Assembly (NCBI GenBank): GCA_028283605.1
Contig: JAPWKH010000026.1
Span: 62,001-126,000, forward strand
Reading direction: 5' to 3'
Length of the DNA: 64,000 nt
Origin: Arachidicoccus sp.
GTDB lineage: Bacteria > Bacteroidota > Bacteroidia > Chitinophagales > Chitinophagaceae
Part shown: positions 38,446 through 42,806 of the stretch, one piece after another
How positions within the stretch are numbered: the stretch's first letter is position 1
How the letters are laid out: the number at the start of each line of letters is the position of its first letter
Notes under the pieces: generated by a model
Seen by the model: only the letters and a program-made list of their open reading frames with translations
Database searches by the model: none
Told to the model about the DNA's origin: nothing
Translations under genes and position numbers: made by a program

Positions 38446-39108
38446 ATGAGTTTCAAGCAAGTCTTCATCTCTCCTGTAGGGAGGAAAATAACTATGGGTC
38501 TTACCGGAATATTTTTAATTTTATTTTTAATTGTGCATGTCGGATTGAATTTATGTGTTTTCGGCGGAGAAGACATGTTCAATTCTGCAGCGCATTTTAT
38601 GGGTGGTTTCTGGGTGCCGCGCGTTTTGGAAATCGGCTTGTTTGCAATGCTAATTATACACATCGTACAAGGAACAATACTGGAAATGGATAATCGCTCC
38701 AAACGCGGTATCGGTTACCAGGTAAGTTACGGAAACCGCGGAAGCAAATGGAACAGCCGTAGCATGTGGTTTTTGGGCATTTTAATACTATTGTTTCTGA
38801 TTTTGCATTTATCAGATTTTTGGTTTCCCAACCGCTCACATCAGCATTTTGTTTTAGGAGAAGAAATTAATCTGTTTGAAAAAATGCAGGATACCTTCAG
38901 TCATCTTTGGGTAGTAATCGTTTATATTATCGGATGCATTGCGTTGGCATATCATTTATTACATGGTTTCCAAAGCGCATTCCGTTCTTTGGGTGTTTAT
39001 AATAAAACATGGCTGGCATTATTAAATTGTATCGGTATAGGATTTTCTATTATTGTGCCGTTGCTGTTTATATCCATGCCTGTGAGTTTTTATTTTGGAT
39101 GGGTTTAA
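38446..39108 (+). CDS. sdhC: Succinate dehydrogenase cytochrome b subunit
   Basis: Multi-TM protein preceding SdhA/SdhB; pattern typical of the b558-type subunit. Confidence 0.88.
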   Translation: MSFKQVFISPVGRKITMGLTGIFLILFLIVHVGLNLCVFGGEDMFNSAAHFMGGFWVPRVLEIGLFAMLIIHIVQGTILEMDNRSKRGIGYQVSYGNRGSKWNSRSMWFLGILILLFLILHLSDFWFPNRSHQHFVLGEEINLFEKMQDTFSHLWVVIVYIIGCIALAYHLLHGFQSAFRSLGVYNKTWLALLNCIGIGFSIIVPLLFISMPVSFYFGWV

Positions 39109-39115
39109 TCAAAGT

Positions 39116-39574
39116 AATTTGAAAATTTGAAAATGTGTTAATTTGAAAATGATTTTTCATTAATTAACTATCAAATTTTTAGATTATGAGAAACGATAAA
39201 GAAAATGTGATTATTGAGAAAACTATTAATTTTTCTCTTTCAATCATTCAATATTGTGAAGTTCTTGAACAAGACAGAAAATATGTAATTGCAAAACAGC
39301 TTTTACGTACCGCAACTTCCATCGGCGCGAATGTTTTTGAAGCACAAAATGCAGAAACTTTATTCACAAAATGAAAATTGCGTCGAAAGAAACAAGCGAA
39401 ACATTCTATTGGTTGATTTTGTGCGAAAGAAGCGAGTCATACAAATTTGAGAAGCAACTTAAAAATAATTTAGAGGAAATCTAAGAATTCTTTCTAAAAT
39501 CATTGCTTCATCAAAAACGGGAATTAAAAATTTTCTCTGGTTTCTTGGCTTTGCATTTTCAAATCTTCAAATTG
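39116..39574. mobile_element. Inverted-repeat-flanked four-helix-bundle element 1 (decayed)
   Basis: Left end aatttgaaaatttgaaaatg (39116-39135); right end cattttcaaatcttcaaattg (39554-39574) is its near-perfect reverse complement. Confidence 0.65.
39186..39540 (+). pseudogene. Four-helix-bundle protein (23S rRNA IVS-like family), frameshifted
   Basis: 'MRNDKENVIIEKTINFSLSIIQYCEVLEQDRKYVIAKQLLRTATSIGANVFEAQNAE' then 'FIHKMKIASKETSETFYWLILCERSESYKFEKQLKNNLEEI' in another frame; homologous to 41606-41959. Confidence 0.85.
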
Positions 39575-39586
39575 ATTTATTGATAT

Positions 39587-41572
39587 ATGTTAGATTCAAA
39601 AATACCTGCAGGAAAACTGGAAGATAAATGGACCGAATACAAAGGTCATTGCAAGCTCGTAAACCCTGCCAACAAGCGCAAAATCGAAGTAATCGTTATT
39701 GGTACAGGACTTGCGGGAGCCAGCGCTGCTGCGGCTTTGGGCGAATTGGGTTACAGCGTAAAAGCATTTTGTTTTCAGGATTCTCCTCGTCGCGCGCACT
39801 CGATTGCAGCGCAGGGAGGTATCAATGCAGCAAAAAATTATCAGAACGACGGCGACTCTGTTTTTCGTCTGTTTTATGATACAATTAAAGGTGGCGACTA
39901 CCGTGCACGCGAAGCAAACGTGCATCGTTTAGCAGAGGTAAGTACTAATATTATTGACCAATGCGTAGCACAAGGTGTGCCTTTCGCACGTGAATACGGT
40001 GGCTTACTGAGTAATCGTTCATTCGGCGGAACGCAGGTACAACGCACGTTCTATGCAGCGGGACAAACAGGGCAACAATTATTGCTCGGCGCATACAGTG
40101 CGTTGGAAAGGCAAGTTGCTTTAGGAACGGTAAAAGTTTATGACCGTCACGAAATGCTCGAAGTTGTAAAGATAGATGGTAAAGCGCGCGGCATCATTGC
40201 CCGTAATTTAATTACAGGAGAATTGGAAAGACATTTCGGCCATGCAGTTTTAATTTGCAGCGGTGGTTATGGAAATGTATTTTATCTTTCTACAAACGCG
40301 ATGGGCAGCAATGTTACAGCCGCATGGAAAGCGCACAAGCAAGGCGCGTATTTTGGCAATCCTTGTTTCACGCAAATTCATCCCACTTGTATCCCCGTTA
40401 CAGGCGATCATCAATCCAAATTGACATTGATGTCTGAATCTTTGAGAAATGACGGACGAATTTGGGTGCCGAAACAAAAAGACGATAACCGGAAAGCGAG
40501 TGAAATACCTGAAGATGAAAGAGATTATTATCTGGAAAGAAGATATCCTGCATTTGGTAATCTTGTACCGCGCGATGTGGCTTCACGCGCAGCGAAAGAG
40601 AGATGCGATGCGGGTTATGGCGTAGGTACTACCAAAAAGGCTGTTTATCTTGATTTTGCAGATGCAATTATGCGCTACGGAAAAATTGAGTGCGGCAAGC
40701 ATGGTATTGAAAATCCTTCAAAAGAAGTTATTCGTCATCACGGGTTGGATGTTGTGAAAGAAAAATATGGTAATCTTTTCGACATGTACGCAAAGATTAC
40801 GGGTGAAGATCCTTATGAAGTGCCGATGCGTATTTATCCCGCCGTACACTACACAATGGGCGGCCTTTGGGTAGACTATGAATTGATGACGAATGTGAAA
40901 GGCTTATATTGCCTGGGTGAAGCCAACTTCAGCGACCACGGCGCAAATCGTTTAGGCGCTTCGGCTTTGATGCAAGGCTTGTCAGATGGATATTTTGTTA
41001 TTCCATATACTTTGGGAAATTATCTGGCCGATGAAATATACAGCAAAGCAATTCCTACAACGCATGAAGCTTTTGCTGAAGCAGAGAAAAAAGTTGCAGA
41101 CAGATTGGAAAATTTAATGAATATTAAAGGGACGGAAACAGTTGAAAGCCTGCACAAACGTTTAGGAAAAATCATGTGGGAAAAATGCGGCATGGCGCGA
41201 AACGAGCAAGGATTGAAAGAAGCAATCGAAGAGATTCGTACATTAAGAAACGAGTTTTGGAATAATGTAAAAATACCGGGTGGCATCAAAGAATTTAATC
41301 CCGAACTGGACAAAGCAGGCCGCGTTGCAGACTTTATCGAGCTTGGCGAATTAATGTGCATAGATGCTTTAAATCGCAAAGAAAGTTGTGGCGGGCATTT
41401 CCGTGAAGAATCCCAAACTCCTGATGGAGAAGCTTTGCGCAATGATGAAGAATTTATGTTTGTTTCCGCATGGGAATATAAAGGACACAACGGGAACAAT
41501 ATAGAATGGGAATTGCACAAAGAAGAATTGAATTATGAAGTAATAAAACCATCGCAGAGGAATTATAAATAA
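39587..41572 (+). CDS. sdhA: Succinate dehydrogenase/fumarate reductase flavoprotein subunit
   Basis: '[19 protein letters not shown]', '[15 protein letters not shown]', '[14 protein letters not shown]'. Confidence 0.97.
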
Positions 41573-42037
41573 TTTGATTATTTGAAAATTTGAAAATGGT
41601 TTTTGATGCGTAGTGATAAGGAAAATTTGATAGTCAAATTAAGTTTTGAATTCGCTAAAGAAATAATTTTTTTCACAGAAAAACTACAAGAAAGCAAAAA
41701 GTTTGTAATTGCAAATCAGCTTATAAAATCGGGAACGTCAATTGGGGCAAATATTCGAGAGGCACAGAATGCAGAAAGCAAGATAGATTTTATACATAAA
41801 TTTAAAATTGCAGCTAAAGAAATTGATGAAACAGAATATTGGTTATTGCTTTGTAAAGATTGTTATGAATTAAAAATGTGCGATGAATTATTAGAAAGAT
41901 TATCTGCTATTAACAGAGTCGTTTCAAAAATAATTTCAACAAGCAAAGAGAAACAATAGATTTTAAAATAAATGTGTTTAATTGATTTGGAAGAAGTATC
42001 GAATCTATCATTTTCAAATTTCCAAATCTTCAAATTG
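41571..42037. mobile_element. Inverted-repeat-flanked four-helix-bundle element 2 (intact gene)
   Basis: Left end aatttgattatttgaaaatttgaaaatg (41571-41598), right end cattttcaaatttccaaatcttcaaattg (42009-42037). Confidence 0.65.
41606..41959 (+). CDS. Four-helix-bundle protein (23S rRNA IVS-like family)
   Basis: 'MRSDKENLIVKLSFEFAKEIIFFTEKLQESKKFVIANQLIKSGTSIGANIREAQNAES...FKIAAKEIDETEYWLLLC'. Confidence 0.9.
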   Translation: MRSDKENLIVKLSFEFAKEIIFFTEKLQESKKFVIANQLIKSGTSIGANIREAQNAESKIDFIHKFKIAAKEIDETEYWLLLCKDCYELKMCDELLERLSAINRVVSKIISTSKEKQ

Positions 42038-42059
42038 AAGAAGCATGCAACACTACACA

Positions 42060-42806
42060 ATGAATCTGACATTAAAAGTTTGGCGTCAGAAAAATGCAAA
42101 TACACCGGGAGATTTTCAAACATATAATGTAGAAAATATATCTTCGGAAATGTCTTTCCTCGAAATGTTTGATGTGTTGAATGAGCGTTTAATCGAAGAA
42201 GGCAAAGAACCTATTGCTTTCGACCACGATTGCCGCGAAGGTATTTGCGGTATGTGCTCAATGGTTATCGATGGAAAACCGCATGGCCCTTGGGCACAAA
42301 ACACAACTTGCCAGTTGCACATGCGCGCCTTCAAAGACGGCGATACCATTGTTGTAGAACCTTGGCGGGCAAAGGCTTTTCCTGTAATTAAAGATCTGGT
42401 TGTAGACAGAACTTCATTCGACAGAATCATTCAGGCGGGCGGTTATATTTCCGTAAATACAGGCAATGCGCAAGATGCAAACAATTTACCCATCGAGAAA
42501 AAAGCAGCAGACGAAGCTTTTGCGGCAGCGGCTTGTATCGGTTGCGGTGCATGTGTTGCAGCCTGTAAAAACAGTTCCGCATTATTATTCACCAGTGCAA
42601 AAGTGGCTCAGTTGTCTTTGCTTCCGCAAGGTGCTCCTGAACGCAAAACCCGCGTTGTCGATATGGTTGCACAAATGGAAAAAGAAGGTTTTGGTGCATG
42701 CACTTCTACAGGCGCGTGCGAAGCAACTTGTCCGAAAGGAATTTCCATTACCAATATTGCAAGACTCAATAAAGAATATTTGTGGGCGACTTTAACGGCG
42801 GAATAA
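42060..42806 (+). CDS. sdhB: Succinate dehydrogenase/fumarate reductase iron-sulfur subunit
   Basis: '[18 protein letters not shown]' and '[15 protein letters not shown]...[16 protein letters not shown]'. Confidence 0.97.

Follow-up and report, generated by a model that had tools for sequence, protein, structure and literature searches.

In the window, that is, the whole 64,000-nucleotide stretch of Arachidicoccus sp. DNA analysed here, the sdh operon raises a simple question: what are the two inserts of ~460 bases (about 450-480 bp in our best explanation) that flank sdhA, and how could they have come to lie there? All the features concerned are on the forward strand. Copy 1 follows sdhC, the upstream host gene for the cytochrome b558 subunit (38446-39108; TIGR02046, E=2e-47), and comprises a 5′ arm at 39111-39135, a decayed four-helix-bundle open reading frame (ORF) at 39186-39553, and a 3′ arm at 39554-39578 that forms an inverted repeat with the first, 88% complementary. 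Next comes sdhA (39587-41572; NF005749, 1183 bits), the host gene between both elements, and then copy 2, whose arms at 41571-41598 and 42009-42036 (89% complementary) enclose an intact gene for a four-helix-bundle protein of 117 aa (41606-41959; PF05635, E=6.2e-23; TIGR02436, E=2e-26), followed by sdhB for the iron-sulfur subunit, the downstream host gene (42045-42806; NF005746, E=2.7e-130). The arms are 25-28 nt long and built on the 8-nt word ATTTGAAA; the stop codon TAA of sdhA is the first triplet of the copy 2 5′ arm, and 8 nt separate the end of its 3′ arm from the sdhB ATG. A first-pass annotation had described a gene of one family in both gaps, inverted ends around each, and an intact copy 2 beside a copy 1 decayed by at least two indels, and all of this stands: PF05635 matches both copies (in copy 1 with E=4.3e-9 on the first frame, 39186-39374, which ends after 62 aa, a second PF05635-family match lying in another frame), and alignment with the counterpart in a congener (G003), itself broken by a different lesion elsewhere, reveals two separate frameshifting deletions in copy 1. 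PF05635 is the only Pfam match of the sdh copy ORF, the NCBIfam matches being to related ‘four helix bundle’ or hypothetical models, and outside sdh a search of the window for local hairpins gave two weak matches only, versus 0-1 in shuffles. We argue that the sdh inserts are probably copies of a small selfish mobile element, akin to the intervening sequences (IVSs) of 23S rRNA and living in mRNA.

What defines the ends of such an element becomes apparent genome-wide. With up to two mismatches allowed, the arm word ATTTGAAAATTTGAAAATG occurs 28 times in the genome versus once for its reversed control; the TTTGAAAA word is also found without any ORF, as are most of the genomic TTTGAAAA arm matches. 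Nine PF05635 matches, two of them from copy 1, are present in this genome, all beside or between host genes and nearly all with inverted flanks, the sequence of which varies from copy to copy and is built of tandem 7-8-nt words (8 nt at sdh, usually 7 nt elsewhere in the family). The TTTGAAAA-type ends highlighted in the first reading are present at the sdh copies but are ruled out as a constant end of the gene family, other copies bearing other words and each protein clade its own. Complementarity of the ends was assessed by reverse-complementing the right flank of each copy and scoring it against the left flank of that copy; pairings with the right flanks of every other copy served as the control, and percentiles of these cross pairs as thresholds; the arms were chosen by best local alignment within flank windows of 180 nt, a choice that blurs arm edges and applies identically to the control. 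Among 122 copies from this genome and its relatives, 100 exceeded the 95th percentile, 74 the 99th and 32 the 99.9th (6, 1.2 and 0.12 expected), as compared with 3/28 above the 95th and 0/28 above the 99th for the control gene sdhA treated in the same manner. Arm self-match was 0.61-0.66 at lags of 7 and 14 versus ~0.25 at most other lags. At some loci of this genome (L021, L022, L033 and L034, on C23, C34 and C24), repeats of the ATTCCCGC...GCGGGAATGACG type adjoin or separate TTTGAAAA arms, an arrangement suggestive of insertion of one repeat family into the other, and at L030 (C18:192669-192754) an ORF-less TTTGAAAA hairpin lies between two tRNA genes of one array.

The moving unit is delimited by two paralogues in the relative G010, L154 and L155, which occupy different gaps, one following a glycosidase-like gene and the other preceding an ABC-transporter-like gene, and share 80% identity across 455 bp, from outer arm edge to outer arm edge, with no homology beyond. 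Because the homology spans exactly this interval, arms and ORF together constitute the unit that moves, and several further pairs, including L163/L146 and L133/L124, likewise show homology from arm to arm. Such units at different sites, with homology that stops at the arm edges, and the variable occupancy of the sdh gap among relatives bear out the mobility proposed earlier; a distribution in which all relatives carry the same ORFs at the same sites, with no copies elsewhere and unconserved repeats, was not seen. Copy number reaches 16 per genome. No target-site duplication is evident at the L154/L155 edges or in the sdh gaps, in comparisons made without a recent empty site with exact flanks, and no transposase with a known catalytic domain is recognisable in the sdh ORF (Pfam, NCBIfam).

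Words and proteins, moreover, change together. Between copies in different gaps, arms are similar in 52% of pairs with a protein identity of at least 0.6 versus 0.4% of pairs below 0.3, figures inflated a little by some pairs that really share a gap (L134/L160 near radC); arm similarity correlates with protein similarity (Mantel r 0.225; null maximum 0.083); and the protein tree contains clades with a common word across different genomes and gaps. This tracking of protein clade by word weighs against an unlikely reading, in which the hairpins are independent, REP-like intergenic palindromes and the four-helix gene merely enters their loops. The predominance of ORF-less TTTGAAAA matches would fit such palindromes, as would a G010 density of ~4 ORF-less word hairpins in every 200 kb versus 14 ORF copies in 5.1 Mb, although the former value is a rough extrapolation from evenly spaced 20-kb stretches, by which ORF-less hairpins may outnumber ORF copies; if they do, arms might spread without the protein of their own copy. 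Copy 2, of a different protein lineage from other sdh copies and yet with the same arms, also agrees with this reading. On the other hand, an ORF-less hairpin in G003 retains the ends of a copy-1-type element and is thus a deletion derivative, and most of the family members sampled in other phyla bear arms of this kind.

Surveyed in 29 relatives, the sdhA-sdhB gap holds arms and gene in G000 (the genome of the window), G013, G015 and G033; in G009 and G034 it contains a gene whose arms are weak or of another kind, and in G003 and G001 only arms; in most of the others it is short, with nothing inside. The G003 hairpin resembles G000 copy 1 over its first 45 nt (98%) and its last 29 nt (93%), which makes it an internal-deletion derivative. 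ORF-less 23S IVSs are known as well. In the protein tree copy 2 branches apart from the copies that G009, G015 and G033 hold between sdhA and sdhB, so that the gap seems to have been re-occupied by another element lineage. One gap in the G010 genus contains gene and arms in two species, ORF-less word hairpins in three, and neither in others. Some details of these gaps deserve mention: before the ABC-transporter-like gene in the G010 genus (L299, L300, L301), the words of the ORF-less hairpins differ among congeners and each pair of arms remains complementary; in the G009 sdhA-sdhB gap (L083) the arms enclose a GC-rich palindrome, CCCCGACTTCGTCGGGG, and in G013 (L081) a short one, CCTGCCTGTCGGCAGACAGG, lies just within the left arm.

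The elements are biased in orientation and site. Between codirectional genes, 97 copies are in sense and 6 in antisense orientation (p=3e-22); nearly every left arm starts at the upstream stop codon, and the right arm usually ends no more than ~27 nt from the downstream ATG. With a sense position in an intercistronic gap, the host operon transcribes the element without breaking a protein. In 41% of cases, versus 20% of shuffles, the 5′ arm leaves none of the three frames open, and stop triplets are slightly enriched (10.3 vs 8.7 per 100 nt); a role of the arms as a stop-codon trap is kept as a minor idea only, since the 3′ arms are enriched too. The ORF evolves under purifying selection (dN/dS 0.03-0.14 in pairs with computable dS), as might be anticipated if the insert were a domesticated, vertically kept cassette for RNA processing or regulation whose mRNA stem tunes the neighbouring cistrons, a reading we deem improbable. 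Occupancy of the argC-argD, sdhA-sdhB and sufB-sufC gaps in several genera each would accord with vertical retention, and folding of the mRNA predicts that the arms pair (z=-1.93). Presence is patchy, however, even within one genus, 71 gaps were observed once only, and the 11/122 copies shorter than 95 aa are probably broken, all of which speaks against a host function.

The same cassette reading, and selection on RNA pairing of the arms in general, would favour G-U over A-C among arm mismatches, yet the G-U-compatible changes numbered 115 versus 132 A-C mismatches (p=0.31), no bias being detected in 60 and then in 146 elements, in a test of limited power whose outcome strand-biased mutation would blur. 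Selection on pairing thus finds no support, and the result suggests that the arms are alike because one reader recognises both, most simply the encoded protein, rather than because a stem is selected. That the protein recognises its own word we infer from the sequence coevolution of the two.

A further point on which the mobile reading has to be qualified is the argC-argD gap, since a four-helix-bundle element occurs there in nine genera (L046, L047, L049, L055, L057, L061, L074, L120, L126). Its arm words there are of at least three kinds, the two arms of any one locus being complementary. This occupancy runs counter to the mobile model, and the distribution must therefore be partly old and vertical, or else such gaps are hotspots; for argC-argD itself, either the gap is a hotspot or an old insertion has had its arms changed in concert.

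As to the protein, AlphaFold2 predicts four helices for copy 2 (pLDDT 93.4), and among PDB entries the model resembles 2rld (TM 0.84-0.93), a solved relative with five chains, and also matches 2gsc. Its likeness to the Avd accessory protein of diversity-generating retroelements (DGRs), put forward in the first-pass annotation, is weaker but upheld, with TM scores of 0.73-0.83 to Avd chains (4dwl/8ub7/8ub8; E 0.13-0.34). This likeness and the sense-orientation bias are what one would cite for a retro-mechanism, with the Avd-like protein and a DGR-type reverse transcriptase acting in trans to copy element RNA into DNA. RVT_1, nevertheless, had no match in this genome or in seven relatives, G034 (16 copies), G032 (14), G031, G033, G029, G026 and G016, and no template or variable repeat was seen; a reverse transcriptase in trans is rejected as lacking from many copy-rich genomes, and a DGR-type mechanism is very unlikely given that most copy-rich relatives and the own genome are without the enzyme. 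An ORF so small, mobile and sporadic might alternatively be an addiction or anti-phage cassette whose gene safeguards either the host or itself by way of toxicity or defence, but the gene is single and has no PADLOC or PHROGs match, by which a defence or phage gene was discarded, and E. coli grew no more slowly with its Coxiella homologue (PMC4990558), so that we give this last reading scarcely any credence.

The inverted-arm design extends well beyond the relatives of Arachidicoccus. An independent scan of GTDB genomes, started from a single protein, yielded 80 further loci, 58 of which exceeded the 95th percentile of cross-paired flanks. Outside Bacteroidota, 14/17 loci exceeded the 95th percentile and 12/17 the 99th, none of the 17 lying within rRNA; the 14 are from Bacillota, Omnitrophota, Chlorobiota, Acidobacteriota, Kiritimatiellota, Desulfobacterota, a gammaproteobacterium and one unplaced bacterium. 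The design surrounds PF05635 genes in bacteria of at least eight phyla. Viral contigs in IMG/VR (L329, L331, L335-L338) also carry PF05635 genes between long word arms, such arms being present at no fewer than 5 of the 8 loci examined, and these contigs are a possible transfer route for the elements. Separately, GxxExxY genes (PF13366) in the genomes of relatives (L186-L215) have locus-specific inverted arms (20/30 above the 95th percentile and 8/30 above the 99th) with words of the CACAGAG/CGCAGAT type and no clear 7-nt period, and may represent a second gene family with a similar inverted-arm design; one such gene occupies the G019 sdhA-sdhB gap (L084).

For the sdh inserts, then, our preferred explanation is an element whose ends would be inverted arrays of a short tandem word and whose one gene would encode a four-helix-bundle protein of the 23S-IVS/S23 family, arms and ORF moving and coevolving together. 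It would sit, sense-oriented, between cistrons of transcribed operons, starting at the stop codon of one and ending shortly ahead of the start codon of the next, and deletion of its ORF would leave short ORF-less hairpins. The unit and its ends, the coevolution of word and protein, the bias in orientation and site, the purifying selection on the ORF, the derivatives and the cross-phylum spread are observed. Beyond these, the protein would recognise its own word at both ends and be needed for spread, host enzymes would carry out strand transfer, and the arms in RNA could pair and be cut (by RNase III in the first-pass annotation), by analogy with rRNA IVSs. More tentatively, at somewhat under an even chance, these elements may constitute an unrecognised, phylum-spanning mobile class in which a single four-helix protein reads inverted ends made of a tandem 7-8-nt word particular to its clade, and the element enters intercistronic gaps without a dedicated transposase or reverse transcriptase, 23S IVSs being its rRNA branch. 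The analysis gives a mobile unit exact ends, shows that end sequence and protein coevolve, supplies a testable hypothesis (that the protein binds its own word) for the very common annotation ‘four helix bundle protein’, which has no function assigned to it, and suggests how an element so tiny may inhabit essential operons without breaking them.

Several known systems share some of these traits. Like MITEs and small insertion sequences, the unit is bounded by terminal inverted repeats (L154/L155) and leaves internal-deletion derivatives, but no transposase was found, no target duplication was seen, and the ends vary by clade. As with REP/BIME sequences and their RAYTs, a gene is framed by hairpin-forming repeats that vary in sequence with its protein, and many intergenic copies lack the gene; unlike them, the arms are tandem 7-8-nt words, most element copies lie inside operons, and the sdh protein is a four-helix bundle, not a tyrosine (Y1) transposase. 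The tandem 7-nt STRR/TAACTGA repeats, intergenic in Cyanobacteria, Beggiatoaceae and some Bacteroidetes, differ in being direct repeats of one word rather than paired inverted arrays, and the term ‘four helix’ is absent from the paper that describes them (PMC4679880). DGR Avd (PDB 4dwl, 8ub7) has a four-helix bundle of common topology, with about 11-12% identity and a reverse transcriptase and template/variable repeats that have no counterpart seen here. A literature search, thin on subscription journals, found no paper linking PF05635 genes outside rRNA with heptamer arms.

The closest parallel is the 23S rRNA IVS, known for more than 25 years, whose S23p ORF is without an agreed origin or function (PMC4990558). 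The helix 45 IVS of Coxiella burnetii measures 428-444 nt and codes for S23p; its inverted-repeat stem is 28 bp long, and GACAGAT heptamers in tandem precede the ORF (PMC4990558). Shared with the elements described here are a PF05635/S23p protein, a size of about 430-480 nt, a sense ORF within an inverted-repeat stem, tandem short repeats in the ends (the 8-nt word at sdh and the 7-nt period of the family versus the Coxiella heptamers) and a sporadic distribution; the differences are a location between protein-coding cistrons rather than in a 23S helix, up to 16 copies per genome, and clade-specific words. The 23S match in the genome of the window is a single uninterrupted stretch, and both inserts described here lie in the sdh operon rather than in such a gene: by location they are not 23S IVSs, by build they are. 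The earlier suggestion of something analogous to IVSs but in an mRNA is thereby reinforced by a common architecture of protein, stem and 7-nt repeats, and also widened, in that 23S IVSs gain a likely wider family of word-armed operon elements across at least eight phyla, of which, judged by this likeness of build, the rRNA IVSs look like the ribosomal branch.
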